Origin: Terriglobia bacterium
GTDB taxonomy: Bacteria; Acidobacteriota; Terriglobia; Acidiferrales; UBA7541
NCBI GenBank assembly: GCA_020072765.1
Contig: JAIQGD010000019.1
Location: 1-33,943, forward strand
DNA length: 33,943 nt
Direction: 5' to 3'
In this document: positions 11,379 through 33,943 of the stretch, piece after piece
How the letters are laid out: every line of letters starts with the position of its first letter
How positions within the stretch are numbered: the first letter of the stretch is position 1
The notes under the pieces: model-generated
The model's input: only the letters and a program-made list of their open reading frames with translations
The model's database searches: none
Told to the model about the DNA's origin: nothing
Translations under genes and position numbers: made by a program

Positions 11379-12415
11379 AGCAATCCCGCCGTTTCCGGAT
11401 ACCCGCGCATCCCATTCAGATTTTGCACCGCTTGCCCCGCCGCGCCCTTGCCCAGATTGTCCAGGCACGACACCACCACCAGCCGCTCGCCCGCTGCGTC
11501 GAGCGCAAAACCGATATCACAGAAATTCGTGCGGGCCACATGCTGCAGCTCCGGCAGCGTGCCCGCGGGCAGAATCCGCACCATCGGCCGCCCGTTGTAA
11601 AACTTGCCGTACAGCGCTTCGATTTCCTCCGCCTTCCGCGCCGGCTTCAGCCACCCGTACAGCGTCGACAAAATGCCGCGGGCCACCGGCAACAGGTGCG
11701 TCGTGAAGACGAAATCCCCGGCCGCCAGGCCCAGATGCTCGGTCACCTCGGGCGTGTGGCGGTGCGTGAACAAATTGTAGGCCCGGAAATTTTCGTTCAC
11801 CTCGACGAAGTGCGTGTCGCGCCTCGGTTCCTTGCCCGCGCCGGTCACGCCCGACTTGCAGTCGCAGACGATCCCCCGCGCCGCGTCCATCCACCCCGCA
11901 GCGACCAGCGGCCGCAAGCCCAGAATCACCGAGGTCGGGTAACACCCCGGATTGCCGACCAGCCGCGCCTTCGGAAGCGCGTCCGCGTACAGCTCGGGCA
12001 ATCCGTAGACCGCCTCGGCCAGCGTCTTGGCGTCGGGCGCCGGAAGTTTATACCACTGCGCGAACGTCTCGGGGCGCTGAAAACGAAACGCCCCGCTCAA
12101 ATCCACGATCCGCAAGCGCGGATTGGCCGCCAGCAGCGCCGGCACCATCTCGAGCGAAGCCTCGTGCGGCGTGGAAAGGAACACGACCTCCGCGCCGCTC
12201 GCGGCCACGGCCTCCACCGACAGCGGGCGGCAGGGCGCGTCGCCCCAGCCGCGCAGCTGCGGGAAAAGCTCCGTCAGGCAGCGCACGTTCGCGTGCGCCT
12301 CGCGGAGAAAAAACGTCGGACTCTCGATGTGGGGATGCCGCAGAAGGAGGCGGGCCAGTTCGTATCCTGCGTAGCCCGTGACTCCGACGACGGCGACCCG
12401 TACGGGGTCGTTCAT
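11375..12415 (-). CDS. argC: N-acetyl-gamma-glutamyl-phosphate reductase
   Basis: This 346-aa NADPH-dependent reductase makes N-acetylglutamate semialdehyde. It begins MNDPVRVAVVGVTGYAG, with the Rossmann glycine motif at 11-17. The catalytic cysteine is C158 in VGNPGCYPTS. The segment HRHTPEV, which contains a histidine typical of the family, and a YNLF motif are present. ATG at 12415 overlaps the argR TGA by 4 bp; a 13-residue extension upstream would run into argR and was not used. Length is normal for the type-1 family. Confidence 0.96.
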   Translation of the reverse strand: MNDPVRVAVVGVTGYAGYELARLLLRHPHIESPTFFLREAHANVRCLTELFPQLRGWGDAPCRPLSVEAVAASGAEVVFLSTPHEASLEMVPALLAANPRLRIVDLSGAFRFQRPETFAQWYKLPAPDAKTLAEAVYGLPELYADALPKARLVGNPGCYPTSVILGLRPLVAAGWMDAARGIVCDCKSGVTGAGKEPRRDTHFVEVNENFRAYNLFTHRHTPEVTEHLGLAAGDFVFTTHLLPVARGILSTLYGWLKPARKAEEIEALYGKFYNGRPMVRILPAGTLPELQHVARTNFCDIGFALDAAGERLVVVSCLDNLGKGAAGQAVQNLNGMRGYPETAGLL

Positions 12416-12864
12416 CGGAGCATTTCCTCCACGCGCTTCTGAATGGCCAGGCACGCCCGGCGCGAAGACGCGATGATCAGCACCGTGTCGTCGCCCGCCA
12501 GCGTCCCGGCAACTTCCTTCCAGTGCTCGCCGTCCACCGCGGCGGCCAGGGGCTGCGCGCCGCCGGGCGGCGTCTTCAGCACCAGCATGTTCTGCGCCGG
12601 GCGGATATCGAGCAGGAATTCCTTGAAGGCATGGGGCAGCGTCGGCAGCGGAGACGCTTCATCGGCCGCCGCATCGGCCAGCGGGCGGTAGCCCGCGGTG
12701 GTCTTCACCAGCCGCAGTTCGCGCAGATCGCGCGACAGCGTGGCCTGGGTCACGCGCACACCCAGATGGCCGAGCTGGCGGCGCAGCTCGTCCTGGCTGG
12801 CCACGGCCTGCCCCGTGAGGAGCTTCAAAATCTGTCCGTGCCGGAATCGTTTCTGTACGCCCAT
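12412..12864 (-). CDS. argR: arginine repressor ArgR
   Basis: This 150-aa transcription regulator heads the arginine operon. The N-terminal winged helix (about 8-65) includes QATLSRDLRELRLVK, the ArgR recognition helix. The C-terminal domain (about 80-150) contains NMLVLKTPPG and GTLAGDDTVLIIA, the arginine-binding and oligomerisation motifs. In the known family, arginine-bound hexamers repress arginine synthesis genes. Being first in the operon, with palindromes over its promoter, suggests autoregulation together with argC through argJ. The start is ATG at 12864 after AAGGGA. Confidence 0.95.
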   Translation of the reverse strand: MGVQKRFRHGQILKLLTGQAVASQDELRRQLGHLGVRVTQATLSRDLRELRLVKTTAGYRPLADAAADEASPLPTLPHAFKEFLLDIRPAQNMLVLKTPPGGAQPLAAAVDGEHWKEVAGTLAGDDTVLIIASSRRACLAIQKRVEEMLR

Positions 12865-12877
12865 GTTCCCTTTATGC

Positions 12878-17422: not shown

Positions 17423-17499
17423 AGGCCCGTAGCTCAGTTGGCTAGAGCGCCACCTTGACACGGTGGAGGTCTGCGGTTCGAGCCCGCACGGGCCTACCA
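17423..17499 (+). tRNA. tRNA-Val (anticodon GAC)
   Basis: This 77-nt cloverleaf has an acceptor stem AGGCCCG/CGGGCCT, D-arm GCTC-AGTTGGCTA-GAGC, anticodon stem CCACC/GGTGG with loop TTGACAC (anticodon GAC, reading GTC/GTT valine codons), T-arm TGCGG-TTCGAGC-CCGCA, discriminator A and encoded CCA at 17497-17499. All stems are perfectly paired. Its 3' part is duplicated twice downstream, which marks it as an integration target. Confidence 0.96.
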
Positions 17500-17544
17500 T
17501 TTGTTTGCACTGCTGGGGCATCGAGCGGGCCGACCGGGTCGGCC

Positions 17545-17579
17545 AGGTCTGCGGTTCGAGCCCGCACGGGCCTACCATT
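17545..17579 (+). repeat. exact 35-bp copy of the tRNA-Val 3' end (att-like, copy 2)
   Basis: It is identical to 17467-17501, covering the variable region, T-arm, 3' acceptor strand, CCA and two further bases. It is immediately preceded by a hairpin GGCCGAC-CGG-GTCGGCC (17528-17544) instead of an anticodon arm, so it cannot be a functional tRNA. Confidence 0.93.
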
Positions 17580-17626
17580 CTTTTGAATGACTTAGGCCAC
17601 AGTCGTGACTCGCCGCTTCAATTCTT

Positions 17627-17650
17627 ACCTGTGATTTCCTACCTGTGATT
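17627..17650 (+). repeat. paired direct repeat, ACCTGTGATT twice at 14-bp period (copy a)
   Basis: ACCTGTGATT occurs at 17627-17636 and 17641-17650. The same pair at the same period recurs at 22144-22167 and, with one changed base per unit, at 23871-23894. It lies about 50 bp after the tRNA-end copy 2. The arrangement resembles arm-type binding sites next to a recombinase core site. Confidence 0.85.
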
Positions 17651-17679
17651 GGGTATTTCCTACTTTTCCTGCGAACCGC

Positions 17680-19512
17680 TTACTTCTCGAGCAGCCCAGC
17701 AATCGCCTGCCAGTCGAGCTGCCGGATCAGTTTACTGACCGCCACGCAGTTTCCGGGATCTTCGCGCAAATGCTTTTGCTCCGCCAAGGACTGCGTGGAG
17801 TTGAGGATGTCATCCACATAAATGATTTGTAGCGCCGAACGCGGCAGCTTCGGATTCAGCAGCTTCGGATTGCGCTCCACCACTCTCCGGCAGCCGGCCG
17901 TGCCCGGCCGCTGTATTTTCCAGCCCTCGATCGAGTCATGCGGCGGGGCATCGGCCAGCACGCAAGCCGGCGCGTCGAGGACGCTCCGGTCGCCCGAGTC
18001 CAGCATCGCCTGCGCCTCTTTGTAAGTCTGCGCGTCGGCCTGCCGCCGCGCCAGCTCCTTCGGATCGTTCGTGCCGAATTGCAGCTCCTCGCGCGCACCC
18101 TCTTCCCATGCGCGGTGCATGGCCTCCAGGTGCCGCGCCTCGTATTCCGCGCCGGAGCCCCCCTTGGCCCGCACCGCGGTTTCCTCCTTGCGCCGCTTGG
18201 CCATCTCCTCGGGGCGTAAGTAATCCTCATTCCTTTTTTTGGCTTCCACGTCGGACTTCTGGGAAGATTCCACCCGGCTCTTATACGTTGGCAGCAGGTA
18301 TTTCAACAGCCGCTCCATCGTGATCGGAACCCACAGCTCGTCCCCCGGGCGCGCGATCACCAGCATCGCCCTCCCCTCCCCGTAGACCGGAAGGCCCCCA
18401 ATCTCGCCGATTTTCCTCGGCTCGATGAAGAACTGGCCTCGGGCATCTTCGTAACGGACACCCACTATGGGGGGGATGTTCACATGAAACCGCAGCCCGC
18501 AATTCACTTCGCCTTCGGTGAGATAGCGCGTCTGGATCTCCCCCGTGGCCTTCAGCCGCACCCGCCTCTCGAAATATCCCGGAAAGCTGAAAAACGTGTC
18601 CGCTCGCAGCGGCAGCCCTTCCGCCAGATACTTCTTCAAATCCGCAGTGGCCTCGAACGAATACCGCGAGGAGCTAGAATAGACGTCGAATCCCCTCGGC
18701 GGATTCAGCAGCGCCGCTTTCTTCACCACCTCGTTAATGCGCTGCAAATTGGCCATGAGCGCTTTACTCTCCGTTGGCGTGGTCTGCAGCTCGCGGGCGA
18801 CAGAAGGGTTGGTGGTCTGAAGCCACGGCAGGAATTTTCCGTCATGATCCGGCACGAAGCCTTCGTCCTTCTCCCCAGGAGGGTGCGGTAAGGGAGGGAG
18901 CGGCTCAGGGACCAACTCACCCGTGTTCACAGCCTTGGCCTCCCGTGCCTTGCCGGTGGCGGCAATTTTCGCCTCCAGCGCCGCGGTGTCCGTCGTCAGC
19001 TTGTTGTTGTAGGCGAGCCGCCGCGCCCGCTCGTAGGCTTTGACCGCTTCCAGGTACTCCCCGACGGCCGCGAGGCCATCTCCATACTTGACCGTTTGCT
19101 CATAGTCCTTCATTGGAGCGAGCGCTGCTTTATCCGGTGCGGACGCTGGAGCCACCGCACTCTTCGCCGGTTCCGCTTCACTCTGCGTGGGCGCAGCCGC
19201 TGGAGCGGGAGCATTCTTTTTCTCATCCCGCACCTTTCGCGCCGCCGCCAGCTTCTTGTCCAGCGCCGCCTTATCGATATCGAGCTTATTGTTGTAGGCC
19301 ACCCGCCCGGCCCGCTCGTACTGCAAGACCGCTTCAAACGCGTTCCCCGCGGTCATCAAATCGTCCGCGCGGCGGACGGTCTCGTCATAGTCTTTCTTCG
19401 CCGCGTCCGTGGATGATTGACAGAAGGCTGCTGGCGAAAGGATGACCACGGCGGGTCCCGTGCCGATTCCCAGCAGCATGATCAAGCCAAGCAATTTCCC
19501 GCGCTTGCTCAT
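17680..19512 (-). CDS. secreted protein with an internal tandem duplication, family not recognised
   Basis: This 610-aa protein has ATG at 19512 after GAGGA, and a signal peptide over about 1-32 ending AAFCQS. Residues 41-97 and 136-192 are two aligned copies of one helical unit (DYDETVRRADDLM... and DYEQTVKYGDGLA...). Each contains a YERA-R-AYNNKL core, 95 residues apart, joined by an Ala/Pro/Glu linker. They look like TPR-type pairs. A probable beta-rich middle domain (about 325-450) and a charged, helical C-terminal half follow. No catalytic motif is visible. The gene is divergent from the other secreted TPR-type gene at 19794, and both sit inside the tRNA-end repeats. A partner role for the two proteins is inference. 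Confidence 0.8.
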   Translation of the reverse strand: MSKRGKLLGLIMLLGIGTGPAVVILSPAAFCQSSTDAAKKDYDETVRRADDLMTAGNAFEAVLQYERAGRVAYNNKLDIDKAALDKKLAAARKVRDEKKNAPAPAAAPTQSEAEPAKSAVAPASAPDKAALAPMKDYEQTVKYGDGLAAVGEYLEAVKAYERARRLAYNNKLTTDTAALEAKIAATGKAREAKAVNTGELVPEPLPPLPHPPGEKDEGFVPDHDGKFLPWLQTTNPSVARELQTTPTESKALMANLQRINEVVKKAALLNPPRGFDVYSSSSRYSFEATADLKKYLAEGLPLRADTFFSFPGYFERRVRLKATGEIQTRYLTEGEVNCGLRFHVNIPPIVGVRYEDARGQFFIEPRKIGEIGGLPVYGEGRAMLVIARPGDELWVPITMERLLKYLLPTYKSRVESSQKSDVEAKKRNEDYLRPEEMAKRRKEETAVRAKGGSGAEYEARHLEAMHRAWEEGAREELQFGTNDPKELARRQADAQTYKEAQAMLDSGDRSVLDAPACVLADAPPHDSIEGWKIQRPGTAGCRRVVERNPKLLNPKLPRSALQIIYVDDILNSTQSLAEQKHLREDPGNCVAVSKLIRQLDWQAIAGLLEK

Positions 19513-19596
19513 TGCTCGTCCTCCTCTTTTGCGGAGGGAAACCCTTCTTTGCCAGCGTTTCCAGCGAAGTGCTTCGCTCGGCATTCCGTTCGTTCC

Positions 19597-19625
19597 TATA
19601 TATGCCAACCCGCCGGCGTCTGCAA
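19597..19625 (-). promoter_or_regulatory. candidate sigma-70 promoter for the 610-aa secreted protein
   Basis: On the minus strand TTGCAG (19625-19620) and TATATA (19602-19597) are separated by 17 bp. Transcription would start about 80 nt upstream of the ATG at 19512. Confidence 0.5.
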
Positions 19626-19630
19626 GTCGA

Positions 19631-19661
19631 TTGACATTTTCGCCCTACGCTGTGCTAAGGT
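19631..19661 (+). promoter_or_regulatory. candidate divergent promoter for the 750-aa secreted protein
   Basis: TTGACA at 19631-19636 is perfect. The best -10 is TAAGGT at 19656-19661, with a TG just upstream but a long 19-bp spacer. It lies back to back with the minus-strand promoter, only 5 bp away, so the two genes may be co-regulated. Confidence 0.4.
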
Positions 19662-19793
19662 GGCCCTGCTTGGCTGGCCTATGGCTCGTTCAGGCTCATC
19701 GGGTCCTTACTACCCGCTTCGCTTCTGCGACCCAACGAAGAAACCCCGCCAAGTTCAAGCACCGGCTCGCCACTCTGTTTAGGAGGATCCGCC

Positions 19794-22046
19794 GTGACCC
19801 TGCCCCGCGCCAGCTCCGCTTCCACAGCCGCGTGCAGCGCGCGAACTTTCCTGCTGCTCATCGCGCTTTTGATGCCGTCGTTTTCTCTCGCCCAGGATTA
19901 CCCCGCTCCGAACCCACAGAGCGCCATGCAAAACTCCATCGCCACTTTGGAAGAGCGCATCGCGACTTTGGAAAGCCAAATTGCTGACGCCGAAAGCCAG
20001 AACCAAACTGCCAGGGCTCAACTGTTGCAGCAGCAGGTAGCCATGTATAAGAAGGCGCTGGCGACGATGCAAGAAAAACTGAAGGCCATGCCCAGCGCTT
20101 CACCCGGGAACTCGCAGGCCGCTGCCGCTTCGGCCGGGCCGTCTCCTCGGCTCCCCAAAAGAGACGCCGCCAAGATTGCCACGCTGCACACAGCAATTCT
20201 CTCCGACTCGGAATTGCGCGCCTTTCTCGTGAAGACGCAGGAGATGGTCGACCGGCGCATCGCCGCCAAAAAACGCGCTCTGGCCGAGCAGCTTTTCAAG
20301 TCGCTGAAATCCAAACCGGCTTCCCCGGCGGAACTTTCCGCCGCCGCCAATGGCCTGTGGTCCGCCGGCCAGTCCGCCGTGGCTCTCTGGCTGATGGGCA
20401 AAGCGACGATCGAAAATCCCGGTCCCGACAACCTGAATAATTACGCCGCCTTTCTCGTCATGGCCGGTGCCCCGGAATCCGCTCTGCCCATCCTCTGGAA
20501 GCTTGACCAGCAGTATCCCGACAACAGCACCGTCCTGAACAACATTGGCCAGGCCTGGTTTGACCTGGGCGATATGGACGAGGCTAAAAAATACCTGGAT
20601 AAGGCCGTGCGCCGCTTCCCCGGCCACCCCCAGGCCAACCGCTCCGAGGCCCTGATCGAGGAGTCTAAGGGAAACAAGCAGGCCGCCGTCACGTACCTTA
20701 AGAATTCCCTGAGCGAGACCTACAGCGATGACCGGGAGCAAGATCTCGAGCGCCTCGGCTCTTCGTTGGACCCGGACGAACTCAGGAAGAGCCTGGGCAT
20801 GCACAAGGATCCTCTCGGCCTGGAGAAATTTAATTACCCTCGCTGGCCCAAGAACACGGACCAATCCGATGAGGACGTGAAGAAATGGGATGACTTTCAC
20901 GACGCCATTTCCGCCGAGAATCGGACCCTGGATGGGATGATCAAATCACTGCAGGACAAATTGAAGAAAAAGCAGGAAGCGAATTCGCAGCCAGGGAATG
21001 GCGTTGGTCTTGTGTTCGGCGGCGGAACGGATGTCACCGAAAACATTTCAAATGACAGCGGCCCCTCGCAGGGCAGCGGAGAGGTGGACTTTCCGTCGCC
21101 CTATTTTAGGCGCGCGGTGCGGCTCCAAAACGACGCCTTCGAGCGCTATAAAGCGTTTCGAAGACATTTCGATGCGCAGGCCCCCGAAACGAGCCGAAGC
21201 CTGGACGCCCTGGAGAAATCGAGCAGTAGCGAGAGCGCCGCCGTGGGGTACAAATACGCCAATATGCCCGAACGCCCGGGGATGGATGAAGCGGAGTGCG
21301 GCGAGACGAAGGCCATCTACAACCCATATCTCCAAAACGCCAACACCATCCTGGAGGGCCGGGCAGTTGCTTACAGGGATGCTGGCCGCAGCCTTCGCGA
21401 TGACATCAGTTTTGCCCGGCAGTTTATCCTCGATCCCGACGCGTACCAATTGGATAAGCTTGAAAACAAAAAGGAGTTTTTGGGCGACTTGACCGCCGTT
21501 GCAAGTCCTATTTTCCGCACCGCCGGCGTGTGCAGCGAGGGGCCGGGAGAAGAGGGCGGCCTCAATCTGCCCGATTTCGACGACATCCACTGCCCCCCCG
21601 ACAAACATATCAAGCTGAATCTGCCCATGGTGCAATGGGAATTCACCTGCACGCAGGCCAGGCTGAAGTACGACATTGTTTATTTCAAGGGCAAGGAGTT
21701 CGAGGACCTGCGCACTGGAGCGACGAAGGGCAACGTGGATTTCATGTTGTCCGCTGGCATGGGCAAGGATGCCGAATTAGGACCGATCAAAGGCGAGTTC
21801 CGTGCCGGCGTCGGTCTGTCTATCGACTACGACAACGGCGGTGTCAGCGACGTGGCCCTGGTGGCTGTGGTCAAGGGAGAACTGGCGCCCAAATTGGATT
21901 TCGATCCCACGGAACTCCCCGGCCGCCATGGAGCTGCTTTCGGAGAGTTTCCATCTGTGGAAGCCGGGGTCGAAGCCAGGGCGGGATGGAACGCCGGTCC
22001 TTCCATTCACGGCCAGGGTTTGTTGGGCGGGGGAGAGGCGGAGTAG
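19794..22046 (+). CDS. secreted coiled-coil/TPR protein, family not recognised
   Basis: This 750-aa protein starts with GTG at 19794, seven bases after a perfect AGGAGG. The signal peptide is about 1-33 (LLLIALLMPSFSLAQ). A heptad-like coiled coil follows (about 44-102, IATLEERIATLESQIADAES). TPR-like repeats lie near 190-300 (VLNNIGQAWFDLGDMDEAKK). A charged, Lys/Asp-rich middle leads to a cysteine-containing segment (about 500-630). The last 120 residues are rich in short glycine-bounded strands (FRAGVGLSIDYDNGGVSDVAL), suggesting a beta-structured end domain. No catalytic motif is visible. Export to the periplasm or cell surface is expected. It shares an intergenic region with the divergent 610-aa gene. 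Confidence 0.8.
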   Translation: MTLPRASSASTAACSARTFLLLIALLMPSFSLAQDYPAPNPQSAMQNSIATLEERIATLESQIADAESQNQTARAQLLQQQVAMYKKALATMQEKLKAMPSASPGNSQAAAASAGPSPRLPKRDAAKIATLHTAILSDSELRAFLVKTQEMVDRRIAAKKRALAEQLFKSLKSKPASPAELSAAANGLWSAGQSAVALWLMGKATIENPGPDNLNNYAAFLVMAGAPESALPILWKLDQQYPDNSTVLNNIGQAWFDLGDMDEAKKYLDKAVRRFPGHPQANRSEALIEESKGNKQAAVTYLKNSLSETYSDDREQDLERLGSSLDPDELRKSLGMHKDPLGLEKFNYPRWPKNTDQSDEDVKKWDDFHDAISAENRTLDGMIKSLQDKLKKKQEANSQPGNGVGLVFGGGTDVTENISNDSGPSQGSGEVDFPSPYFRRAVRLQNDAFERYKAFRRHFDAQAPETSRSLDALEKSSSSESAAVGYKYANMPERPGMDEAECGETKAIYNPYLQNANTILEGRAVAYRDAGRSLRDDISFARQFILDPDAYQLDKLENKKEFLGDLTAVASPIFRTAGVCSEGPGEEGGLNLPDFDDIHCPPDKHIKLNLPMVQWEFTCTQARLKYDIVYFKGKEFEDLRTGATKGNVDFMLSAGMGKDAELGPIKGEFRAGVGLSIDYDNGGVSDVALVAVVKGELAPKLDFDPTELPGRHGAAFGEFPSVEAGVEARAGWNAGPSIHGQGLLGGGEAE

Positions 22047-22333
22047 TTCTTTGCCAGCCATGCGCCTTTTGCCATGAAATTGAGCTGAACGATCACCGCA
22101 CTGAGCCGCACCCCTTTGGTCGTGATTCGCCGCTCGTGTTTCTACCTGTGATTCCCTACCTGTGATTGCGTGTTTTTCGCTGCATCAGCGGGAATCGACG
22201 ACTCCGTTCTGGACGAGTTGCAGTGGTTGTCGCGGCGACATGCGGGTTCAGCGAACACGCTGCCAGCGGACCCCATACGAAAACGCGATCAGGAGAACAA
22301 CGCGAACCGCGTCATCGCAACTCCTCCGTAAAT
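22047..22333. other. gene-free gap carrying repeat copy b
   Basis: No gene is seen here. Downstream of 22105 the sequence GTCGTGATTCGCCGCT resembles the flank after tRNA-end copy 2 (GTCGTGACTCGCCGCT, near 17602-17617). The paired repeat follows it. So this may be a decayed junction whose tRNA-derived core has been lost. Confidence 0.5.
22144..22167 (+). repeat. paired direct repeat, ACCTGTGATT twice at 14-bp period (copy b)
   Basis: The units are 22144-22153 and 22158-22167, identical to copy a, and preceded by the same CGTGA(C/T)TCGCCGCT flank. This copy lies between the secreted TPR gene and the CapA-like gene. Confidence 0.85.
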
Positions 22334-23575
22334 CTAGTGCCCGCTTTTTACTTTGACCGTCGCCGTCTCGCCCTTGAGCTCTATCTCTGTCCCAAAGGGT
22401 TTTGAGGCGTCCGCCATCCGCTGCAGGATATCGCGCGCCTTTTGGCCTGTCGTCGGCGCCGGCAAGCCGCGCGTGTCGATGAACCGGTTATTCGCATAGA
22501 TGTGGTAAGGATCGGGCAAGCCCTCGCCCACGTAATTCATAGAGATCGGCTGCAACGTGATGGATTTGAGGTTACTCCCCTGAAATTCGACATAGGCCAC
22601 CACGCTTTCCCAAGTGATGGGTTCTTCGATCCTCCAGAGCCCGGGAGACACGTTGAAAATAAAATTGCCTAGATCGTAGAAAATCGGCTTCCCGTGATAG
22701 ATCTCCAGGCCGTGCAGCAGCGGCGCCCCGTGCATCACGATGATATCCGCGCCCGCATCTACCTCGCGGTGCGTCCATTTTTTCAGCCATTCACTCGGGG
22801 CCAGCCGCTCCGGCAACTCCTCCTCAAACATCGCCAGGAACGCCCTGTTCGAGAAGACGTGATTGTGCTGGTACACGATGACGACATCCGCGTGTTTCCG
22901 GGCATCTCTTATGCTCCGAAGAATTTGTTCGGCGTCCTCCTGGTTCGGCTCATTTTGCACTCCTGGCGGAAGGTCATCAAACGCCTCGTTCTTCTTGTCC
23001 CCCATTTGAATGCGCAACTCATTCACGCCGGGCCGGTCCACCGTCGCACTACCTCCCTCCTGGATCGCTCCCGACGCACTCGCCACCAGGGCCACCGTAC
23101 CCTTCGGCGTGTGCAAGTAACCCGGCGCCACGGCTTGATCTGCATTCCGTCCGATCCCCGCATGAACGATCTTCCGTTCCTCCACCTCACGAAGCGTGTT
23201 TTCAATGCCCGTCCGCTGGAAATCAAAAGAATGATTGTTGGAAAGAGACAGCAGATTGAATCCAAACGTCGCGAGCGCATCGAGCGTTTCCGGCGGCGAG
23301 AGAAATCCCTCGTCCTCCGGGGCCTTATCTCCTTTTTCGGCGATGGTGGCCTCGAAGTTGGTGAACTTCACGTCTCCTTTCATCAGCGATTGGACCGCCG
23401 GCACGGCCGCCGGCGCGGTTGCGCGGATATCTGAACGGATCATCGACTGCCCGGCCAAAGTGATCAGCATCGGCTGCGACTGCGGCCATAGAGTCGCTCC
23501 AGCAGCAAGCGCCATCGCGAGACAAATTATCGCAAGCACGTAGCGATTCGATTTCGAGGTTGCTGCCATGTGCAT
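22334..23575 (-). CDS. CapA/PgsA-family metallophosphatase-like secreted protein
   Basis: This 413-aa protein has a signal peptide or anchor at about 11-33. It resembles the CapA family, associated with poly-gamma-glutamate synthesis and with a calcineurin-like metallophosphoesterase fold. Supporting motifs are FTNFEATI (71-78, family NLE), LSNNHSFDF (111-119), ADIIVMHG (276-283) and HGKPIFYDLGNFIFN (294-308). Some usual metal ligands differ. The N-terminal GDv-f-R is AGQSMIR, and the usual GHHPH segment reads MHGAPLLHG, so catalytic competence is uncertain. ATG at 23575 follows GGGGG directly, while a second ATG at 23569 has better spacing. The pgsB/pgsC ligase genes are not in the window. 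Confidence 0.82.
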   Translation of the reverse strand: MHMAATSKSNRYVLAIICLAMALAAGATLWPQSQPMLITLAGQSMIRSDIRATAPAAVPAVQSLMKGDVKFTNFEATIAEKGDKAPEDEGFLSPPETLDALATFGFNLLSLSNNHSFDFQRTGIENTLREVEERKIVHAGIGRNADQAVAPGYLHTPKGTVALVASASGAIQEGGSATVDRPGVNELRIQMGDKKNEAFDDLPPGVQNEPNQEDAEQILRSIRDARKHADVVIVYQHNHVFSNRAFLAMFEEELPERLAPSEWLKKWTHREVDAGADIIVMHGAPLLHGLEIYHGKPIFYDLGNFIFNVSPGLWRIEEPITWESVVAYVEFQGSNLKSITLQPISMNYVGEGLPDPYHIYANNRFIDTRGLPAPTTGQKARDILQRMADASKPFGTEIELKGETATVKVKSGH

Positions 23576-23776
23576 CCCCCAGTTTTTGGCGACTGCCTGA
23601 GACTTCTTATCTCATCATTTCAGGGCTCGACGGAGTCTGCTGTTTGCGCGGCGATGCGTGCCGTAGCTTCGAATTGCGTCGCCAATCCTAACACGCCTGC
23701 GCATTCCACAAACTGTCCGCTCGCGGCCGAGCTCGTTCGGACAGCACACTTCGGCTCGGCCATGGGCGCACTTCCG

Positions 23777-23828
23777 TTGACACGGCGGAGGTCTGCGGTT
23801 CGAGCCCGCACGGGCCTGCCATTTGTTT
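23777..23828 (+). repeat. 52-bp near-exact copy of the tRNA-Val 3' half (att-like, copy 3)
   Basis: It aligns with 17455-17506 with two differences by eye: GGTGG becomes GGCGG, and CCTACCA becomes CCTGCCA. It runs from the anticodon loop through CCA and the ATTTGTTT that follows the tRNA. The 5' half of the tRNA is absent. Confidence 0.93.
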
Positions 23829-23870
23829 CAATGTCTTGCGCCACACGCATATTTCTCCGCGCGATTTCCT

Positions 23871-23894
23871 ACCTGTGTTTCCCTACCTGTGTTT
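23871..23894 (+). repeat. paired direct repeat, ACCTGTGTTT twice at 14-bp period (copy c)
   Basis: The units are 23871-23880 and 23885-23894, differing from copies a and b by one base each (A to T, changed in both units). It lies 42 bp past the end of tRNA-end copy 3, comparable to the spacing at copy a. Confidence 0.85.
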
Positions 23895-23963: not shown

Positions 23964-26897
23964 TTAACGAAGTTGGCGGTCCGAAACCGTCGAGGACGAC
24001 AGTTCCAGGTTGCACTGGGCGAGGTGGCGCGAGACTTCAAGGGGAAGCGTCGTTTCGGCCCCGATGGTGTTAATGCGTGCAGGGTTGGAGATATTGTTCC
24101 ATGCATGGAGGCTTTTCTGGAACCACTCGCTCGCCTCCTGCAACTCGGACATTTTCTGTTTCCTTGTGCGACTGCTGTCAGCGAGTTGTTCGGCGAGCAT
24201 GCCTTCTCCGGTGTATGTTTCCGCCAAAGCATATAGAACATCTTGATCGTCCGGACTGGCATGGGAAAGGGGGCCGAGCAGCGCCAACGATTGCTCATAT
24301 TGTTGCCTGGCTCTTTCCGTTTGACCGAGCTTGAGAAGAGATCCCGCCAGACGCTCCGTGACGGAACAGAAATAGAACTGCGTCTCCAAGTCGTTCGAGC
24401 CGCCGGCGCGCACCGCACTCAGGAACTCCTGGCCCGTTGCATACTCGAGCGACGCCGCGCGAATCTTGCCTTGGTGCTCCAGCGCTTCGCCCATCCACAT
24501 ATGGAAGACACCCTGAAGAGTGCGCATGAGCGGCGTTTGTGATGGTTCGCCTGCAACTGCCCCGAGGGTTTTGCGCAGGTAGCGGATGCCTTCTTCCACT
24601 CGGCCCTCTTCCACCAAGGCCAGGCCGAGCTCCGCGCTACTTGTTATTTCCGCTCGGCGCAGAAATTCGTTTTTTGGATCCATGGCCTTCAGCCGCGCGG
24701 CCGCTTGCTGGGCCTTCGCGTAATAACGGACCGCTTCCGCGTTCTGGCCCTCCAACAAGTAGACGTCGCCGATCTTCGAAGTCAGGATCGTTGCGTTCGA
24801 GGCAAAGCGGATATTGTCTCCCTTGGGATTCAACGCATCCAAGATGTCGACGCCACTGCGGTAGTAGTTCAAGGCAGCAGCACGATTCCCTAGCTTGAAT
24901 ACGGCATCGCCCAGGACCCCATTTATTACAGCTCCTTGCGCTTGATAACTTAGATTGGCGGGAGCGAGCTGAACAGCACGCTGACGGAGAAGAAGGGCCT
25001 TCTGAAGGTCAGCCACGCCTCCGGATGCTGTGCCGATGCTCCCCATGGCGCCTTCGCCGACCTGCAGCATTCCCAGATTTACATGCCCGCGCATGGACTG
25101 CACAACGATCCGGACGTCGTCGGGGCTGGCAACGGCTTCCTGATCCAAGATGGCGAGCGCCTTTTTGCAGTAGTCAAATGCCGCCGCCACGTTGCCGGCG
25201 GCGGCTCTCTGAAAATCAGAGTAGTCCAGATAGGCGGCGGCCAGTTCCACCTGGTCTGCGCTGTTCCTCGGATTTAAGCGCGCCAACGACTCGCGCAACG
25301 CAAGCGATTTTTGAAAGCTGGCCAGTGCAGACTGTGTGTCGCCGAGATTGGGGTCCTGAGGATTTCCCTGAAGGGACCCAATGCGGCTGTACGCGGTGGC
25401 CAGCTCACGAAGCAGGCTGGGTTCGTTTCCCGATTCCGTAGAGAGGCTATCCAAATATTCCAAGGATCTCTGCAGGATGAGTTTCCGGGCCTGGGTAGCG
25501 CCCGGCAGGTTTGCAATCGAGTCGTGCACTTCAAAAATAAGAGAGTTGGCCAGCTTGCGCACATCGTTAAATCGGGCTTCCGCGCGCCGCCGGTTGGCCT
25601 CTGCGATGCGCGCTTCGCGCACGGTTACGGCGACGCCGGTGACCAGTGTGATCAGAACCAGCGCGGCTGCGGCGACACCCGCTTTGTGCCTCCTTACGAA
25701 CTTTGCGGCGCGATAGCTCCATGTCCCTTTTCTTGCGGAGACCGGAATCCCCTCCAGGTGGTTGCGCAGGTCTCCCGCGAAGTGTTCCACCGAGGCGTAA
25801 CGCAGCGCGGGTTCCTTCCGTAGCGCCTTCAACAGGACAAAGTCGAGGTCACCGCGAAGCCGGCGCTGTAACCGAAGGGGCGACACTTCTCGCGTACGGC
25901 TGACGGTTTCAGCCGTCAGCTCGCGCAACGCTCCGTCCTGCAGAACACTCTCGGTGCGCTCCACGGAAGTGCTGGGCCGCTCGGGCTCGTCGTGAGTGAT
26001 GGCTTCCGCTAGTTTCCCCGCGGTCCGCTTATCGACGCGGTAGGGAGAGCGGCCGGTGAGCAGTTGATACAGCACGACTCCGAGGGAATAGACATCGGTC
26101 GCGGTGGTGATCGGCTCGCCACGAATCTGCTCCGGGCTCGCATATTCGGGAGTCATGGGCCGGAGCACCGTGGCCTCGGTGGCGCCGGAAGCATCCAGGA
26201 GCTTGGCGATGCCGAAGTCCAGCAGCTTCGGCGTTCCCTCTTGCGTGACGAGAATGTTGCTGGGTTTTATATCCCGATGAATCACCAGATGCTGATGCGC
26301 ATATTGCACGGCCCCGCAGACCTGGCCGAACAACTGCACACGCTCGGTCACGGTCAGTTTCCGCGCGTCGCAATAGGCGTCGATGGGCTGCCCTTCCACC
26401 AGTTCCATCACGAGATAGGGGATGCCGTCGTCGGTCGTGCCGCCATCAAGCAGTCGGGCAATGTTCGGATGGTCCAGGCTGGCGAGAATCTGGCGCTCGT
26501 TGCGAAATCGTTCCAGGAGCAAGGCCGTGTCATAGCCGCTGCGGACCAATTTGAGAGCGACCTTCTTCTCATACGTTCCATCGGCGCGGAGGGCGGCGAA
26601 AACCTCGCCCATCCCCCCATGTCCGATTTCATCTCCGACCAGATAGGGGCCGATTCGGCGGCCTGCGCGGACATCGGCGCGCGGTGTGGTGTCCGCTGCT
26701 CGCTGGGCCACTGCGCCCGCGACGTTCAGGAATTGGCTGCCGGCTTCGTGGTGGGAGGCGATCAGAGACTCCACTTCGCGGCGCAGTTCGGAATCCCCGG
26801 CACAGGCCTCGTTCAGATACTGCTCGCGTTGCGTGGTGGCGAGCGAAAGCGCCTTTTCCAGGACTTCGCTGATCCGTTCCCATCGTTCCGGGGTCAC
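23964..26897 (-). CDS. transmembrane serine/threonine protein kinase with C-terminal TPR region
   Basis: This 977-aa protein has an N-terminal helical region (1-75), then a Hanks-type kinase domain. Its glycine loop is GHGGMGEV at 92-99, invariant lysine K116, catalytic HRDIKPSN at 207-214, DFG at 227-229, and SPE in place of APE at 254-256. All catalytic residues are present. A transmembrane helix lies at about 406-426. About 550 residues of TPR-like helices follow, probably outside the membrane. GTG at 26897 overlaps the sigma factor TGA (GTGA), so it is the preferred start, and the two genes are co-translated. Such kinases phosphorylate Ser/Thr targets; the overlapping sigma factor is the obvious candidate target or partner, but that is inference. 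Confidence 0.93.
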   Translation of the reverse strand: MTPERWERISEVLEKALSLATTQREQYLNEACAGDSELRREVESLIASHHEAGSQFLNVAGAVAQRAADTTPRADVRAGRRIGPYLVGDEIGHGGMGEVFAALRADGTYEKKVALKLVRSGYDTALLLERFRNERQILASLDHPNIARLLDGGTTDDGIPYLVMELVEGQPIDAYCDARKLTVTERVQLFGQVCGAVQYAHQHLVIHRDIKPSNILVTQEGTPKLLDFGIAKLLDASGATEATVLRPMTPEYASPEQIRGEPITTATDVYSLGVVLYQLLTGRSPYRVDKRTAGKLAEAITHDEPERPSTSVERTESVLQDGALRELTAETVSRTREVSPLRLQRRLRGDLDFVLLKALRKEPALRYASVEHFAGDLRNHLEGIPVSARKGTWSYRAAKFVRRHKAGVAAAALVLITLVTGVAVTVREARIAEANRRRAEARFNDVRKLANSLIFEVHDSIANLPGATQARKLILQRSLEYLDSLSTESGNEPSLLRELATAYSRIGSLQGNPQDPNLGDTQSALASFQKSLALRESLARLNPRNSADQVELAAAYLDYSDFQRAAAGNVAAAFDYCKKALAILDQEAVASPDDVRIVVQSMRGHVNLGMLQVGEGAMGSIGTASGGVADLQKALLLRQRAVQLAPANLSYQAQGAVINGVLGDAVFKLGNRAAALNYYRSGVDILDALNPKGDNIRFASNATILTSKIGDVYLLEGQNAEAVRYYAKAQQAAARLKAMDPKNEFLRRAEITSSAELGLALVEEGRVEEGIRYLRKTLGAVAGEPSQTPLMRTLQGVFHMWMGEALEHQGKIRAASLEYATGQEFLSAVRAGGSNDLETQFYFCSVTERLAGSLLKLGQTERARQQYEQSLALLGPLSHASPDDQDVLYALAETYTGEGMLAEQLADSSRTRKQKMSELQEASEWFQKSLHAWNNISNPARINTIGAETTLPLEVSRHLAQCNLELSSSTVSDRQLR

Positions 26898-27472
26898 GGC
26901 TGCTCGCTCCGGTTCATCTCGCGGAAGAGCCAGGCACGCGCCGTGGTCCAACTGCGCTTAACCGTGGCGGGGGAGACTCCCAGCACTTCCGACGTATCTT
27001 CAATCGAAAGGCCCGAAAAAAAACGGAGTTCGACAATTTCGCTCTGCTGTGGATTGAGTTGCGCCAGATTGTTCAACGCGCTATCCAGCGCCAGGATGTC
27101 CAGGTTCTTCCCCGGGGACCCGGCCACGGCTTCGTTCAGAGACAGCGTGAGCGAGTTGCCGCCACGTTTGGCGGCCCGGTTCGTTCGGGCGTGATCCACC
27201 AGGATCTGGCGCATGAGCCGCGCGGCCACTCCGAAAAAGTGGGCCCGGCTTTTCCATTCGGGAGGATTCTGACCTACCAGGCGCACGTAGGCTTCATGCA
27301 CCAGCGCCGTGCTTTGCAGGGTGTGATCGGGGCGTTCCTGGCGGAGGTAGTGCCGCGCCAGGCGGCGGAGTTCCTCGTAGACCAGCGGCATGAGGGCGTC
27401 CAGCGCTTCGCGGTCTCCCGCGCGCCACCGAACCAGGAGATCCGTGACCTGCCTGGGAGATCCGTTCTGCAC
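26894..27472 (-). CDS. ECF-type RNA polymerase sigma factor
   Basis: This 192-aa protein has sigma region 2 (about 8-80, including LVHEAYVRLV) and region 4 (about 130-190, LRFFSGLSIEDTSEVLGVSPATVK). It resembles the ECF group often found next to Ser/Thr kinases. No anti-sigma gene is adjacent. I chose GTG at 27472, six bases after GGAG, although the frame stays open to a TTG at 27538. A near-perfect promoter at 27510-27538 overlaps the upstream TTG and ATG codons, so transcripts would begin after them. The resulting length is normal for the family. Confidence 0.88.
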   Translation of the reverse strand: MQNGSPRQVTDLLVRWRAGDREALDALMPLVYEELRRLARHYLRQERPDHTLQSTALVHEAYVRLVGQNPPEWKSRAHFFGVAARLMRQILVDHARTNRAAKRGGNSLTLSLNEAVAGSPGKNLDILALDSALNNLAQLNPQQSEIVELRFFSGLSIEDTSEVLGVSPATVKRSWTTARAWLFREMNRSEQP

Positions 27473-27509
27473 GTGTGTCTCCGGCCGTGGGGAAGAGCGC
27501 TCGCGGCGC

Positions 27510-27538
27510 ATCATAGGGAATCGCCGACGGGTTGTCAA
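27510..27538 (-). promoter_or_regulatory. near-consensus sigma-70 promoter of the sigma factor-kinase operon
   Basis: On the minus strand TTGACA (27538-27533), 17 bp, TATGAT (27515-27510). Expected start of transcription is near 27503, with a leader of about 30 nt to the GTG at 27472. Confidence 0.75.
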
Positions 27539-27660: not shown

Positions 27661-27757
27661 GCAGGGGGCCACAGCCGGGTCTGATCTCGCTGGCGAAACC
27701 TTGGATCAGCTCTAGTGGCTGTCGATTGCGTTCCGCCCGTCACCGCAAGGAGTGACT

Positions 27758-29413
27758 ATGCCATCCCAATCATTGCGCTGTGTCTGCTTGTTCGCGGTCC
27801 TGTTTGCCGCCACGGGGGTCCAGGCCCAGGACCTGCACATCAAGAAAAACGTCTCCGTGGGAGGGAATTTCGTCTCCACCACGGAGACTTCCATCAAAGG
27901 CGCTCGCGAGCGCAGCGTGGATCAAGGACCCAACGGAAGCACCATCACCCTCAGGCAATGCGACCTCAAGCGCACCCTGACGGTGAACGAGCAGGCCCAG
28001 ACCTACCTGGCGTCCGACGATCCCCAGGACGAGAACGCCGTCAGGGCCGCGGCCCTGGCGACCGGTGCGCCGGCAGCAGAGGTCTCTGGAGGAAAGATCA
28101 CCGTGACCACCACGATCACCGACACCGGCGAGCGCAAGCCGATGTACGGCTATCAGGCGCGGCACCTGAAAGCCAAAGTCGTCCAGGAGCCTTCGGCGGA
28201 CGCCTGCACACAGGTCCGCCAGTCGTTTGACATCGATGGCTGGTTCGCCGACATCTCCAAAGAGCATGCGGCATGCTCGGTGTTAGCTCCTGCCGTTCAA
28301 CAGGGCACGGGCTGCCATGACACGGTGATCTCCCGCCGCAATGGCAGCGGCAAGGCGGGCTACCCGCTGCAGGAGAACATCAGCATGCCCACCCCAGACG
28401 GTGGTACGACGACGGTGACCATCCAGGTTTCGGAATTGACGAAACAGGAGCTCCCCGCCGATTTGTTCGACGTGCCGTCGGGGTACCGGCAGGTCAGCTC
28501 GCGTGCCGAACTCAACGGCGCATCCATGGCTCCACAACAGGCGGCAGGCACGCCCATGCAGCCGGGAGCGGCAGGCAACGGCCCAGGCCAGCAGTCAGCG
28601 GCTCAGCAGATAATGAACAACCCGAACCCCGGCGCGCGTTCCGCCGCCGGCCAGCAAGGGGCATGGCAGGCGGTCAATCAGTATGGAATCCCGCATGGCA
28701 ATGCGCCGATGAACGCACCCATGGGAGGGATGTCTCCGACGATGGGAATGCCCGGTATGGGTGGTCCACCGGCGGGCAGCACAGCGGTGGCCGCGCCTCA
28801 GGCGCTCGGGCCGAAGGCGCCGGGAAAAATCCGTATAGGTGTCGCATCCCCGGACGCGCAAGTGGGCCAGGGCAACAACGCGGGAGCGGACTACAGCACG
28901 CCCATCCGCAACGCCGTCGTCGCGTTGATGAGCGGACCAGCGATCGAGATCGCCGCCCTCGACTCGCGCATTGCGATCCAGGTGCAGGCCGAGGCCCAGC
29001 AAAAGCAGTGTGATTATGTTCTGTACTCCAGTGTGGCGCTGAAACACAGCTCGGGGGGAGGCTTCGGCAAGTTCATGAAGATGGCTGGACCCCTCGCCAG
29101 TGTGGCTCCCATGGCTGGCGGGATGGGCGGCGCCATGGGCGGAGCCGTGGCCGCTCAGGCTGCCGGGGCTGCGGCTTCGGCGGCCGCCATGTCGGCGCAG
29201 CAGCAGGCCATGAGCCAGCTCTCCGGCTTCAACGGCCAAATCAAGTCGAAGGACGACATCACCATGCAGTACCAGCTCGTCCCCACCGGGGGATCTTCGC
29301 CCCGGCTGCAGAACACTCTGAAAGCGAAGGCGAAGTCGGATGGCGAAGACGTACTGACGCCGCTGCTTCAGCAAGCAGCTACAAACGTCCTGACCGAAGT
29401 CACCAAGAAGTAG
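27758..29413 (+). CDS. secreted two-domain protein of unknown function with Gly/Met-rich linker
   Basis: This 551-aa protein starts with ATG at 27758, five bases after AAGGAG. The signal peptide is 1-23 (GVQA-QDL). The N-terminal domain (about 25-240) is beta-rich (DLHIKKNVSVGGNF, MYGYQARHLKAKV) and resembles lipoprotein-like periplasmic domains. A Gly/Met/Pro/Gln linker (about 250-345) follows. The C-terminal domain starts KIRIGVASPDAQVG and contains QKQCDYVLYSSVALKH, a Gly/Ala/Met-rich stretch and a final VLTEV. I recall similar C-terminal domains in other acidobacterial secreted proteins but cannot name the family. No catalytic motif is seen. A terminator hairpin follows at 29424. Confidence 0.82.
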   Translation: MPSQSLRCVCLFAVLFAATGVQAQDLHIKKNVSVGGNFVSTTETSIKGARERSVDQGPNGSTITLRQCDLKRTLTVNEQAQTYLASDDPQDENAVRAAALATGAPAAEVSGGKITVTTTITDTGERKPMYGYQARHLKAKVVQEPSADACTQVRQSFDIDGWFADISKEHAACSVLAPAVQQGTGCHDTVISRRNGSGKAGYPLQENISMPTPDGGTTTVTIQVSELTKQELPADLFDVPSGYRQVSSRAELNGASMAPQQAAGTPMQPGAAGNGPGQQSAAQQIMNNPNPGARSAAGQQGAWQAVNQYGIPHGNAPMNAPMGGMSPTMGMPGMGGPPAGSTAVAAPQALGPKAPGKIRIGVASPDAQVGQGNNAGADYSTPIRNAVVALMSGPAIEIAALDSRIAIQVQAEAQQKQCDYVLYSSVALKHSSGGGFGKFMKMAGPLASVAPMAGGMGGAMGGAVAAQAAGAAASAAAMSAQQQAMSQLSGFNGQIKSKDDITMQYQLVPTGGSSPRLQNTLKAKAKSDGEDVLTPLLQQAATNVLTEVTKK

Positions 29414-29423
29414 CAGCCAGTCT

Positions 29424-29458
29424 GGGGCGGGAGTAGTTTAAGAGGTCCCTCCCGCCCC
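29424..29458 (+). terminator. probable intrinsic terminator after the 551-aa protein gene
   Basis: GGGGCGGGAG (29424-29433) and CTCCCGCCCC (29449-29458) form a 10-bp perfect stem with a 15-nt loop, starting 11 bp after the stop. A short TTTT follows a few bases downstream. The T-run is weak but the stem is strong. Confidence 0.65.
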
Positions 29459-29543
29459 CCCGTTTTGCGTGCGCAAGCACCACAGCGGGGCATCAAGGCG
29501 TGGCTTCACTGCGCCAACACGCTCCGAGAAACGGAGGCCTGCC

Positions 29544-31025
29544 ATGAAAGCAAACACCAAGACAATCATCGTGGTTGCCGCGATTGGATTCATTTTGCTG
29601 ACAGGTATGCGATTCATGTCATCGTTCCGCAAGCCGGCGCCCTCACCGCAAGCCATGAGCCCGTTTGGCCTTTTTGGTCAGCCCGGGTCGGCGATCCCAG
29701 GCTTGAGCAAGGCAGGCGTGGATGCCACGGTTTTCAGCCTCATGAGCCAGTATGGGCTGGACATGCGCACTGCGACCTACCTGGCGCAGGCGAAGATCCG
29801 CGTGATCAGCCAAAGCAACACAGCCGCGCATCTCATCCTGACTTTTCCGGACAACCTCATCGCCGACGAAACCATCACCCTCACCCCCGGTGAGCAATAC
29901 ACACCGACTGCCGCCGAACTGGAGGAAGCCACGCGGTCGGGTGTGCTCATCTACAACCGGAAGTTTTCGGCAAAAGCGGAGGGCGCGGATGAAACACGAA
30001 TCACCTTGCAATATTTCGTTCCCTACAGCGCCGTTCCAGCAGAGTTGCAGCAGACGATCCGTGGCCAGGCTCCCTCGGCACAGTGGTGGGACCTCGTGCC
30101 TTCGGCATGGGCGCAGGAAAGTGGCGAGATGGGCGCGGGGGTAGGTGTTTCCTCAAGTTTTGGTGTTGCCAAAGCAGGCGTTGGCGCCCTTTGGAATATC
30201 GCGAGTGCGTTCAGTAAGAGCCAACAAAATCAAAGCTGGATGCAACAGATGGATGCACTGCAGAATTGCGCACAAAATCCTACCAACCCGGTGACCCAAA
30301 AGGCGTATCAAGATAATCCAGCTTACCGGGAACAAACCGTCTCGGGTGTGCAGCAGGCGCGCTCGGAAGTACAACAAGTCACGGGAATGAGATTCCTGAA
30401 CCAGGGGGTCGCAACCGCAACCGGCCTCGTGGGTGGTCCCTTGAAACTGGTGACCGCGCCCGTTTCCATGTGGAATGACAGAGCGTTAAAGGATATTGCC
30501 GATCAGCAAATCCGGGATGTGGCGAAATCAGTCGATTGCGACCCAGCACCGACGAATAATCCCCTGCATGTTGACCCTCGGGAACATGCCGACGGCACGA
30601 TCCAGTACCACTACCATAGGGAGGGTTATCAAGGCTTCGATGAAGATGACCGGTTTTTCAAGGGCCAATTCAATATCCAGTCCCCTCTGCCCGGCTATTA
30701 CACTGTGACCGGCACAGGCCCCTTTAAGACCAGAGCGAGATCCTCGCAAGCCGGCACCAAAAGTACGTGCCAGGGCCACGAGCGAATAGGAGGCGGGGGT
30801 CCCCCCAGCACGTTCCAGATCGGGGGTGGCGTCACCGACGGCGAATGCGACGTCGTCGAGCGCGGCCGAACCACCCACGACCAATATGGGGGCGGCGCAG
30901 CTGGTTTCGAGTGTTCTTTTCACAACTTGGACTTTGTCAATGGCGGCCGCTATTCGTCTACCGGAGATGGTCTGGACGGGCAGTACGGCGTATGCACACT
31001 GGAACTTACCCCCCAGCAAAAGTGA
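29544..31025 (+). CDS. membrane-anchored or secreted protein of unknown family
   Basis: This 493-aa protein starts with ATG at 29544, seven bases after GGAGG. One N-terminal hydrophobic helix (about 7-22) is a signal anchor. A first region (about 50-165) looks alpha/beta and mentions no known motif. Residues near 180-195 read VPSAWAQES, oddly like a second signal-cleavage site in mid-protein. A Gly/Ala region and a Gln-rich helical stretch (about 205-330) follow. The last 130 residues have four cysteines (TCQGHE, ECDVVE, ECSFHN, VCTLEL) in a Gly/Thr-rich, probably beta-structured domain, where disulfides are plausible. I do not recognise the family. It lies between a terminator and repeat R1a. 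Confidence 0.75.
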   Translation: MKANTKTIIVVAAIGFILLTGMRFMSSFRKPAPSPQAMSPFGLFGQPGSAIPGLSKAGVDATVFSLMSQYGLDMRTATYLAQAKIRVISQSNTAAHLILTFPDNLIADETITLTPGEQYTPTAAELEEATRSGVLIYNRKFSAKAEGADETRITLQYFVPYSAVPAELQQTIRGQAPSAQWWDLVPSAWAQESGEMGAGVGVSSSFGVAKAGVGALWNIASAFSKSQQNQSWMQQMDALQNCAQNPTNPVTQKAYQDNPAYREQTVSGVQQARSEVQQVTGMRFLNQGVATATGLVGGPLKLVTAPVSMWNDRALKDIADQQIRDVAKSVDCDPAPTNNPLHVDPREHADGTIQYHYHREGYQGFDEDDRFFKGQFNIQSPLPGYYTVTGTGPFKTRARSSQAGTKSTCQGHERIGGGGPPSTFQIGGGVTDGECDVVERGRTTHDQYGGGAAGFECSFHNLDFVNGGRYSSTGDGLDGQYGVCTLELTPQQK

Positions 31026-31087
31026 CGTTTGAAACAGTTCCTTTCCGGCAAAATCCACTGCCTGAGAAGGGGAGCTTTGCCGTGAAA

Positions 31088-31231
31088 TGGTCGTGCCATG
31101 GCACGGCCCTCGGAGAACTTCGAAGCGTTCGCGATTCCCGGCCTGTTCGCAAACTATTTTGCGGTTCGGTGAGCCAATTGGCCACGCTTTTCCGCATGTA
31201 CAGGGCAAAGAGGCCGGAGGGAGTCAACCTT
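31088..31231 (+). repeat. repeat R1, copy a
   Basis: This sequence of about 144 bp recurs at 33784-33926. It starts with an inverted repeat, CGTGCCATGGCACG (31092-31105), and contains TTCGCAAACTATTTTGCGG and TTCGGTGAGCCA. A degenerate copy is at 27585. The two good copies look roughly 80-85 percent identical by eye. Confidence 0.85.
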
Positions 31232-31232
31232 C

Positions 31233-31353
31233 GCGGTATCCCGGTCCACCCCGAAGGGGCCGGGAACAGTCACCGTGACGTCAACGATGGGAACGGATTC
31301 GAAGACGACGACGATCGGCATTAACGTGAAATGACTTGCGATGTCCGGGCGGT
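31233..31353 (+). repeat. repeat R2, copy a
   Basis: This 121-bp sequence recurs at the same length at 33514-33634, roughly 90 percent identical by eye. It contains a CCCC-GAA-GGGG mini-hairpin and a GTCAC-C-GTGAC palindrome, both conserved in the other copy. Confidence 0.9.
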
Positions 31354-31445
31354 GTGAGGTACGTATGTCTGCAACTCGGCTGGTTGTTCGATGAAGGCGC
31401 GAGTTTCGAGGGCGCGGCGCCTCCAATACAATCGGAGGAACGGCG

Positions 31446-33455: not shown

Positions 33456-33513
33456 AAAGGCTCCGTTTCACCCGTGAACGAGGGAATCGCAAGGCCGGAC
33501 TGGTTGCAGCACC

Positions 33514-33926: not shown

Positions 33927-33943
33927 TCCGCGCCACAGTGGGC

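Follow-up and report, generated by a model that had tools for sequence, protein, structure and literature searches.

Paired Repeats behind tRNA-Val Ends

The 33,943-bp contig JAIQGD010000019.1 of a Terriglobia bacterium (assembly GCA_020072765.1), referred to below as the window, carries three tandem pairs of a short repeat with a 14-bp period. As deduced from their sequence, these pairs most probably represent the P′ arm-type sites of integrative elements that target tRNA genes and are stacked, in the manner of cis-mobilizable elements (CIMEs), within this genome. The reading as an arm-type recombinase site beside a core had originally been proposed from the window alone; it gained support from a fixed register, from a tRNA end at 17 of 19 compared sites, from an intact integrase gene in another genome (locus L084), and from corresponding pairs next to related integrases at different tRNAs. 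The genome (G000) comprises 3.78 Mb on 152 contigs, the window being contig C40. The features concerned are the following:

17423..17499, plus strand: intact tRNA-Val(GAC) gene, predicted insertion target (ARAGORN)
17545..17585, plus strand: tRNA-Val 3′-end copy 2, putative core of unit 1, its CCA ending at 17577 (BLAST, flank list)
17578..17625, plus strand: 48-bp linker from core to pair a (site alignment)
17626..17650, plus strand: putative arm pair a, TACCTGTGATT TCC TACCTGTGATT (pattern scan, site alignment)
22143..22167, plus strand: putative arm pair b, no core found within 130 bp upstream (pattern scan)
23777..23828, plus strand: tRNA-Val 3′-half copy 3, from the anticodon loop, its CCA ending at 23821 (BLAST, flank list)
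23870..23894, plus strand: putative arm pair c, TACCTGTGTTT CCC TACCTGTGTTT (pattern scan)

Scanning the window with the pattern ACCTGTGWTT-N4-ACCTGTGWTT returned exact matches at 17627–17650, 22144–22167, and 23871–23894, the places at which the three pairs had been noted, and no further match at up to three mismatches. Since the conserved unit is 11 bp long (TACCTGTGWTT) and is followed by a 3-bp spacer, the pairs start at 17626, 22143, and 23870. The whole-genome scan added one exact pair (d) on contig C150 (56826–56849, minus strand), giving four exact pairs in G000, three of them at tRNA ends, as well as a match with two mismatches on contig C21 (L005). Chance repeats would account for isolated matches lacking a tRNA, such as the latter and those in L035, L143, L081, L086, L089, L090, and L092, but as a general explanation they are negligible: none of 100 dinucleotide shuffles of the window produced a pair, the reversed pattern gave no match in the genomes listed in the scans of G000 and of 41, 89, and 399 genomes, and G000 alone holds the four exact copies. 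For the tRNA-linked sites, chance is already refuted.

The start of pairs a and c lies exactly 48 bp beyond the final A of the CCA at the tRNA end, so that the proximity claimed for these two copies stands, while the distance originally given (42–47 bp) was approximate. Copy b, as noted, has no tRNA-end core within 130 bp upstream. It keeps the upstream flank GTCGTGATTCGCCGCT, compared with GTCGTGACTCGCCGCT in copy a, and the 88 bp from pair b onward are 84% like the same stretch of pair d; pair b is a putative unit boundary whose core was lost or eroded. Across 19 aligned sites, the usual state of the pair is TACCTGTGATT in unit 1 and TACCTGTGTTN in unit 2. The third-last bases of the two units are (T,T) in c, (A,A) in a and b, and (A,T) in d and most relatives; they are alike in both units only at a, b, L078b, and c. 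The A-to-T change noted in both units of copy c is real, but concerted evolution of the two units, which had been read from it, was rejected in the light of the 19 aligned sites.

Occurrence of the Pair and Its Fixed Register

The exact pair was searched for in 257 Gb of genome contigs from 84,980 species, a collection from which the window genome's own records may be excluded. Fifteen stretches were recovered, 11 from acidobacterial metagenome-assembled genomes and 4 from other phyla (two near-identical Bacteroidetes loci, Pseudoscardovia, and Rickettsiales). The 3′ end of a tRNA-Val(GAC) or tRNA-Ala(GGC) was located just upstream in all 11 acidobacterial stretches, as an intact tRNA gene in seven (ARAGORN) and as a 3′-end copy in four, and in none of the others. 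Allowing one mismatch, 399 genomes of the class yielded nine matches in six genomes, seven being situated at tRNA-Val ends; the other two were pair b and a site in G392 that looks like chance. Viral contigs contained one match to the pattern, without a tRNA. The original proposal would have been refuted by pairs at many loci unrelated to tRNA genes or insertion boundaries, an outcome seen in neither scan: the four exact matches lacking a tRNA all belong to other phyla, and in the scan of the class only two of nine matches are without a tRNA end.

The comparison of 19 sites omits the second pair of G021 and that of G358, both degenerate, as well as the chance-like matches without a tRNA. Apart from pair b and L078b, all sites have a tRNA end upstream, and the gap to the pair is 48 bp at nine of them, 49 bp at two, and 22–23 bp at six (the G021 site, assigned to the last class, reads 24 if anchored one base later). 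The pair thus lies inside the element at 48–49 or 22–23 bp from the core at these 17 sites, as is characteristic of arm-type sites, and would act in the manner of an attachment (att) site of the lambda type. The two registers differ by approximately 25 bp, and a tRNA-proximal block resembling TTTTCAATNACTTAGC is present only in the long one. Mean likeness amounts to 55% for the linkers in the 48-bp class and to 30% for the DNA after the pair.

Two further explanations bear on these data. The pair might be a non-functional leftover, i.e., a duplicated stretch hitchhiking with the tRNA-end copies, as the decayed-looking units (pair b, the second G021 pair, and L078b) would allow; yet the register is kept within 1 bp per class while the linkers diverge, and it holds at both tRNA-Val and tRNA-Ala genes and, as G358 shows, in a second family, leaving this explanation extremely improbable. 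Hardly more credible is a signal for transcription or processing that belongs to the tRNA or the next gene and is carried along with the tRNA end. The position close downstream of tRNA genes would fit, but most relatives' tRNA-Val genes lack the pair (present in 2 of 41 and 5 of 89 genomes scanned), the pair also follows bare 3′-end copies (a, c, d, L079, L083, L087, L091, and L095), and the genes after it differ and lie on either strand.

The Stacked Array

BLAST detected five tRNA-Val 3′ ends in G000 (E < 1e-11), namely the intact gene, the two window copies, and two copies on C150. The first of the latter (56944–56892, minus strand) is followed 48 bp on by pair d; no pair comes after the last copy (51079–51025, minus strand), whereas all other end copies have one. 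Unit boundaries are marked by the cores at 17545, 23777, C150 56944, and C150 51079, pair b being the exception. The core-bounded units measure 6.2 kb (a–c) and 5.9 kb (d to the last core), the c–d unit having the contig gap inside it; given pair b, the a–c unit perhaps represents two units. Tandem accretion, as proposed from the window, was borne out by an array that is longer than could be seen there, with its five tRNA-Val ends distributed over two contigs.

Protein comparison with relatives places the array in its genomic context. G010, which has no array, carries tRNA-Val between a response-regulator gene and argR (approximately 0.9 kb apart), with a single core and with argR directly beside the tRNA. 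On C40 of G000, argR stands to the left of the tRNA, and on C150 the same response regulator, together with the kinase, lies to the right of the last core; the neighboring ends of the two contigs have common stretches that are 94–97% alike. The simplest reading is that C40 and C150 would form one interval of about 34 kb from argR to the response regulator. The tRNA-Val gene points away from argR in G000 and G007 and towards it in G010, G001, G009, and G004 (window 12864–17423; L105, L106, L108, L109, and L110). This difference from G010 additionally calls for an inversion, which apparently took in the tRNA together with its array.

Integrases beside the Pair

Locus L084 (JASHRE010000139.1, genome G110) consists of an intact tRNA-Ala gene, the pair with a third unit, and, directly after the pair and converging on the tRNA, a gene for a 421-aa integrase, which provides the integrase in cis that accompanies arm sites in autonomous elements. 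The protein is a tyrosine recombinase (Pfam, E 1e-24; likewise an integrase by PHROG) with a complete catalytic set (R252, K286, H363, R366, H390, and Y400 in an alignment of 16). Its predicted model (mean pLDDT 79) features three N-terminal strands and a helix at residues 48–103, and Foldseek matched it best to the Tn1549 integrase (6en2, E 7e-12) and also to the full-length lambda integrase (1z1b, E 2e-9). This predicted N-terminal domain may resemble known arm-binding domains, as the Foldseek lambda alignment helps to suggest; a single homolog matched the Pfam model for such domains, with a score under the cut-off. L077 and L078 contain remnants of the L084 integrase, and the end of contig L080 falls within the 3′ end of its gene. 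Viral contigs contained no close relative of the L084 integrase (one locus at 26% identity), and neither did phages, for which all 485 records were below 60% identity and those listed were at about 25%. Seven Phage_integrase matches in G000 were considered as a resident integrase and rejected, none of them fitting; five lie near tRNA-Lys, tRNA-Pro, tRNA-Ala-TGC, tRNA-Ser, and tRNA-Thr, and the stretches of the other two contain no tRNA. The integrase near tRNA-Pro in L018 (G000:C114) is accompanied by a perfect 9-bp tandem pair of its own, TGTAGTGAC, with a 12-bp period.

Homologs of the L084 integrase (E ≤ 1e-20) occur in 36 of the 89 family genomes. Among the 30 homolog loci listed, 20 have a tRNA in the stretch, adjoining the gene's end in 19 of these, and most tRNA-linked homologs show a tandem pair 25–84 bp after the tRNA (e.g., CAACCCACA, CAACCCGAA, AAGGGGCAC, and TTGCTCCAA). 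When tRNAs were split automatically into integrase-adjacent ones and others, and a tandem pair was defined by at least eight of nine bases repeated, pairs followed 24 of 31 integrase-adjacent tRNAs and 9 of 29 others (p 6e-4). After removal of the sites that bear the present motif, the counts were 21 of 28 and 3 of 23 (p 1.4e-5; L084, L080, L077, L085, L078, L003, L142, L088, and L082 dropped, with L096, which bears this motif, kept among the controls), both p values being optimistic because many loci are related. An earlier comparison with hand-picked controls (19 of 20 versus 3 of 22) was superseded by the automatic split.

Furthermore, tRNA-Val elements of the genus to which the window belongs are marked by a sister motif, TTTTGTGAC, of 12-bp period, and G008 has an integrase gene directly behind this motif. 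Candidate P-side arms of the sister type were located approximately 174–201 bp before the distal cores in L097, L104, and L111. The integrase open reading frame (ORF) of L098 (G008:C249; 1711–3006) reads through the arm pair into tRNA-Val (1693–1769) on the opposite strand, its stop lying inside the tRNA gene.

An accessory factor, such as an excisionase (recombination directionality factor) or a host DNA-bending protein, might bind the pair instead of the integrase, in which case the pair would still mark the element end. Direct repeats in tandem with a constant spacing would be equally compatible with such factors. However, the pair changes with the integrase type, equivalent pairs stand at one place beside each integrase gene, and with a host factor a single motif throughout would rather be expected, which makes an accessory factor unlikely.

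Proposed Mode of Integration and Its Weak Points

For the preferred reading, i.e., arm-type sites of an integrase, the following course is proposed. An element would enter the 3′ half of tRNA-Val(GAC), the strands probably being exchanged at the anticodon loop, and the pair would serve as the docking place for a bipartite tyrosine integrase of the lambda type, which would bind there by its N-terminal domain. Insertion would restore the tRNA and leave a copy of its 3′ half at the far end; at the end facing the tRNA, the arm pair would come to lie inside the element at a fixed distance of 48 bp. Several elements would be stacked behind one tRNA, and therefore every core copy but the last would have a pair after it. 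The units would now be stranded or movable only with an integrase supplied in trans. Some pairs and cores have decayed, which points to an array that is fossil in part if not as a whole.

Several observations weigh against this reading. An intact integrase gene at high identity was found in only 1 of the 12 pair-bearing genomes searched (G110); it lies at tRNA-Ala, and none was seen beside a pair at tRNA-Val. G000 itself has no homolog of the L084 integrase at E ≤ 1e-20. A P-side arm of this motif's type precedes one distal core only (L083), pair b and L078b are without a core, and the conservation of the pair itself is inflated because the sites were found by it. The tRNA orientation is opposite to that of G010. 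Arm-pair binding and excision are predictions, and we infer binding, crossover position, past or present mobility, and the joining of C40 with C150 alike.

Small Cassettes at tRNA Genes

Much smaller units were found between tRNA-Val ends elsewhere: a 0.6-kb unit with one SnoaL-like gene in G065, a 0.73-kb unit with one DUF4440 gene in G021, in which the second pair is degenerate, and, in G358, which belongs to another family, a 1.05-kb unit behind which lie a second core, whose pair is degenerate, and a third core. No integrase relative was found in these three cassette stretches. It is conceivable, albeit doubtful, that such integrase-free units represent an integron-like gene-capture array on tRNA genes of Acidobacteria, working by lambda-type recombination with capture in trans. 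The tRNA 3′ half, the 23- or 48-bp register, and the arm pair with its 14-bp period would then be the common module, and one integrase would read the same arm address at tRNA-Val and tRNA-Ala genes.

Insertions of another kind, approximately 0.3 kb long, directly follow tRNA-Val in L047, L049/L109, and L052 and contain an ORF for a GIY-YIG nuclease (Pfam E 2e-13 in L052 and 3e-16 in L049; frame broken in L047). They end in a tRNA 3′ half in which a hairpin with conserved stem and varying loop replaces the anticodon arm, and may be homing-type mini-elements of the tRNA gene. A probable remnant of one, with its tRNA 3′ end, occupies 17500–17577 of the window. Literature searches found no paper on such a GIY-YIG mini-element.

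Cargo and Neighboring Features of the Window

The cargo types of the array comprise a tetratricopeptide repeat (TPR) protein, a PGA_cap protein, a kinase with an extracytoplasmic function (ECF) sigma factor, a pyrroloquinoline quinone (PQQ) dehydrogenase, and a DUF5916 protein, and look ordinary. Further features of the window are as follows:

12412..12864, minus strand: argR, left flank of the array and end of an arg cluster from 3949 (homology within genus)
17500..17544, plus strand: probable GIY-YIG mini-element remnant (same hairpin form in L047, L049/L109, and L052), with the hairpin GGCCGA-CCGGG-TCGGCC at 17528–17544 in place of the anticodon arm
17680..19608, minus strand: cargo, 642-aa protein of no Pfam family (ORF list, Pfam)
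19794..22046, plus strand: cargo, 750-aa TPR protein (ORF list, Pfam)
22334..23575, minus strand: cargo, PGA_cap-family protein (Pfam)
23964..26951, minus strand: cargo of the next unit, protein kinase with TPR repeats (Pfam)
26894..27538, minus strand: cargo, ECF sigma factor (family search)
27752..33455, plus strand: further cargo, ORFs of 553, 518, and 669 aa (ORF list, Pfam)

A glycosyltransferase block at 12894–17090 was absent from the relatives' stretches examined. The tRNA-Gly called by ARAGORN at 23729–23821 is probably spurious, being built on the tRNA-Val 3′-half copy. A second, longer family of direct repeats (D1–D3, 74–97% alike) is present at 27588–27645, 31088–31356, and 33492–33928, where its copies are intergenic and lie in the right half of the window, and also at the C150 end (L022, 16866–17216).

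Comparison with Known Systems

Arm-type sites of lambda-type integrases are known from Tn916, L5, and lambda, with which the pairs share short repeats inside the element near the core. The pair sequence is, to our knowledge, unlike any arm site, and literature searches found no description of the motif. Integron cassette arrays likewise consist of small units with a common recombination site, arranged head to tail behind one anchor. Unlike in integrons, the anchor here is a tRNA gene, and the L084 protein reached 68 bits with the integron-integrase model, compared with a cut-off of 265; attC folding and IntI were not sought, and none was seen.

As far as described in the available text on KplE1/IntS (PMC2951348), arm-type sites are short element repeats near the core that are bound by the integrase N-terminal domain; the pairs differ from such sites by their 14-bp period, and binding is predicted here from sequence. 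The Islander tDNA islands (PMC4383910, available text) agree in the restored tRNA, the displaced 3′ fragment at the far end, and the anticodon-loop class of sites. Islander requires an integrase gene for each island, and the available text lists only four tandems of three or more; the array, unlike these islands, was found to contain no integrase gene of its own. Tandem units behind one RNA gene were also reported for the Dehalococcoides ssrA islands (PMC3146451), 15 of which have no integration module and are possible CIMEs according to the available text; these depend on a serine recombinase, unlike the tyrosine integrase of another kind considered here. The available text on the islands of an acidobacterial genome (PMC3174227) describes no such arrays.

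The closest likeness is to CIMEs and tandem accretion as defined in the available text of PMC5704250, where they are credited to Pavlovic 2004 and Bellanger 2011: units that are flanked by att sites and stacked at one site, CIMEs having neither integrase nor transfer genes. No integrase gene was found in the window or L022; transfer genes were not searched for, and the c–d unit crosses the contig gap. The likeness lies in the att sites at the unit ends and would extend to the putatively integrase-free units, ancestry from integrative and conjugative or mobilizable elements (ICEs/IMEs) being no part of it. Unlike CIMEs, some units here are 0.6–1.1 kb long with one gene, and the arm site is recognizable and common to two tRNA targets. 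The proposed insertion mechanism is a known one, and integrase-free packets this small are a useful variant of it. Whether one integrase serves in trans could be asked here, where two tRNA targets have the arm site in common and one of them has an intact integrase. The pair with its fixed register provides an address label for integrase-free tRNA cassettes that are skipped by integrase-based island finders, and opens a test of how soil Acidobacteria acquire gene content.

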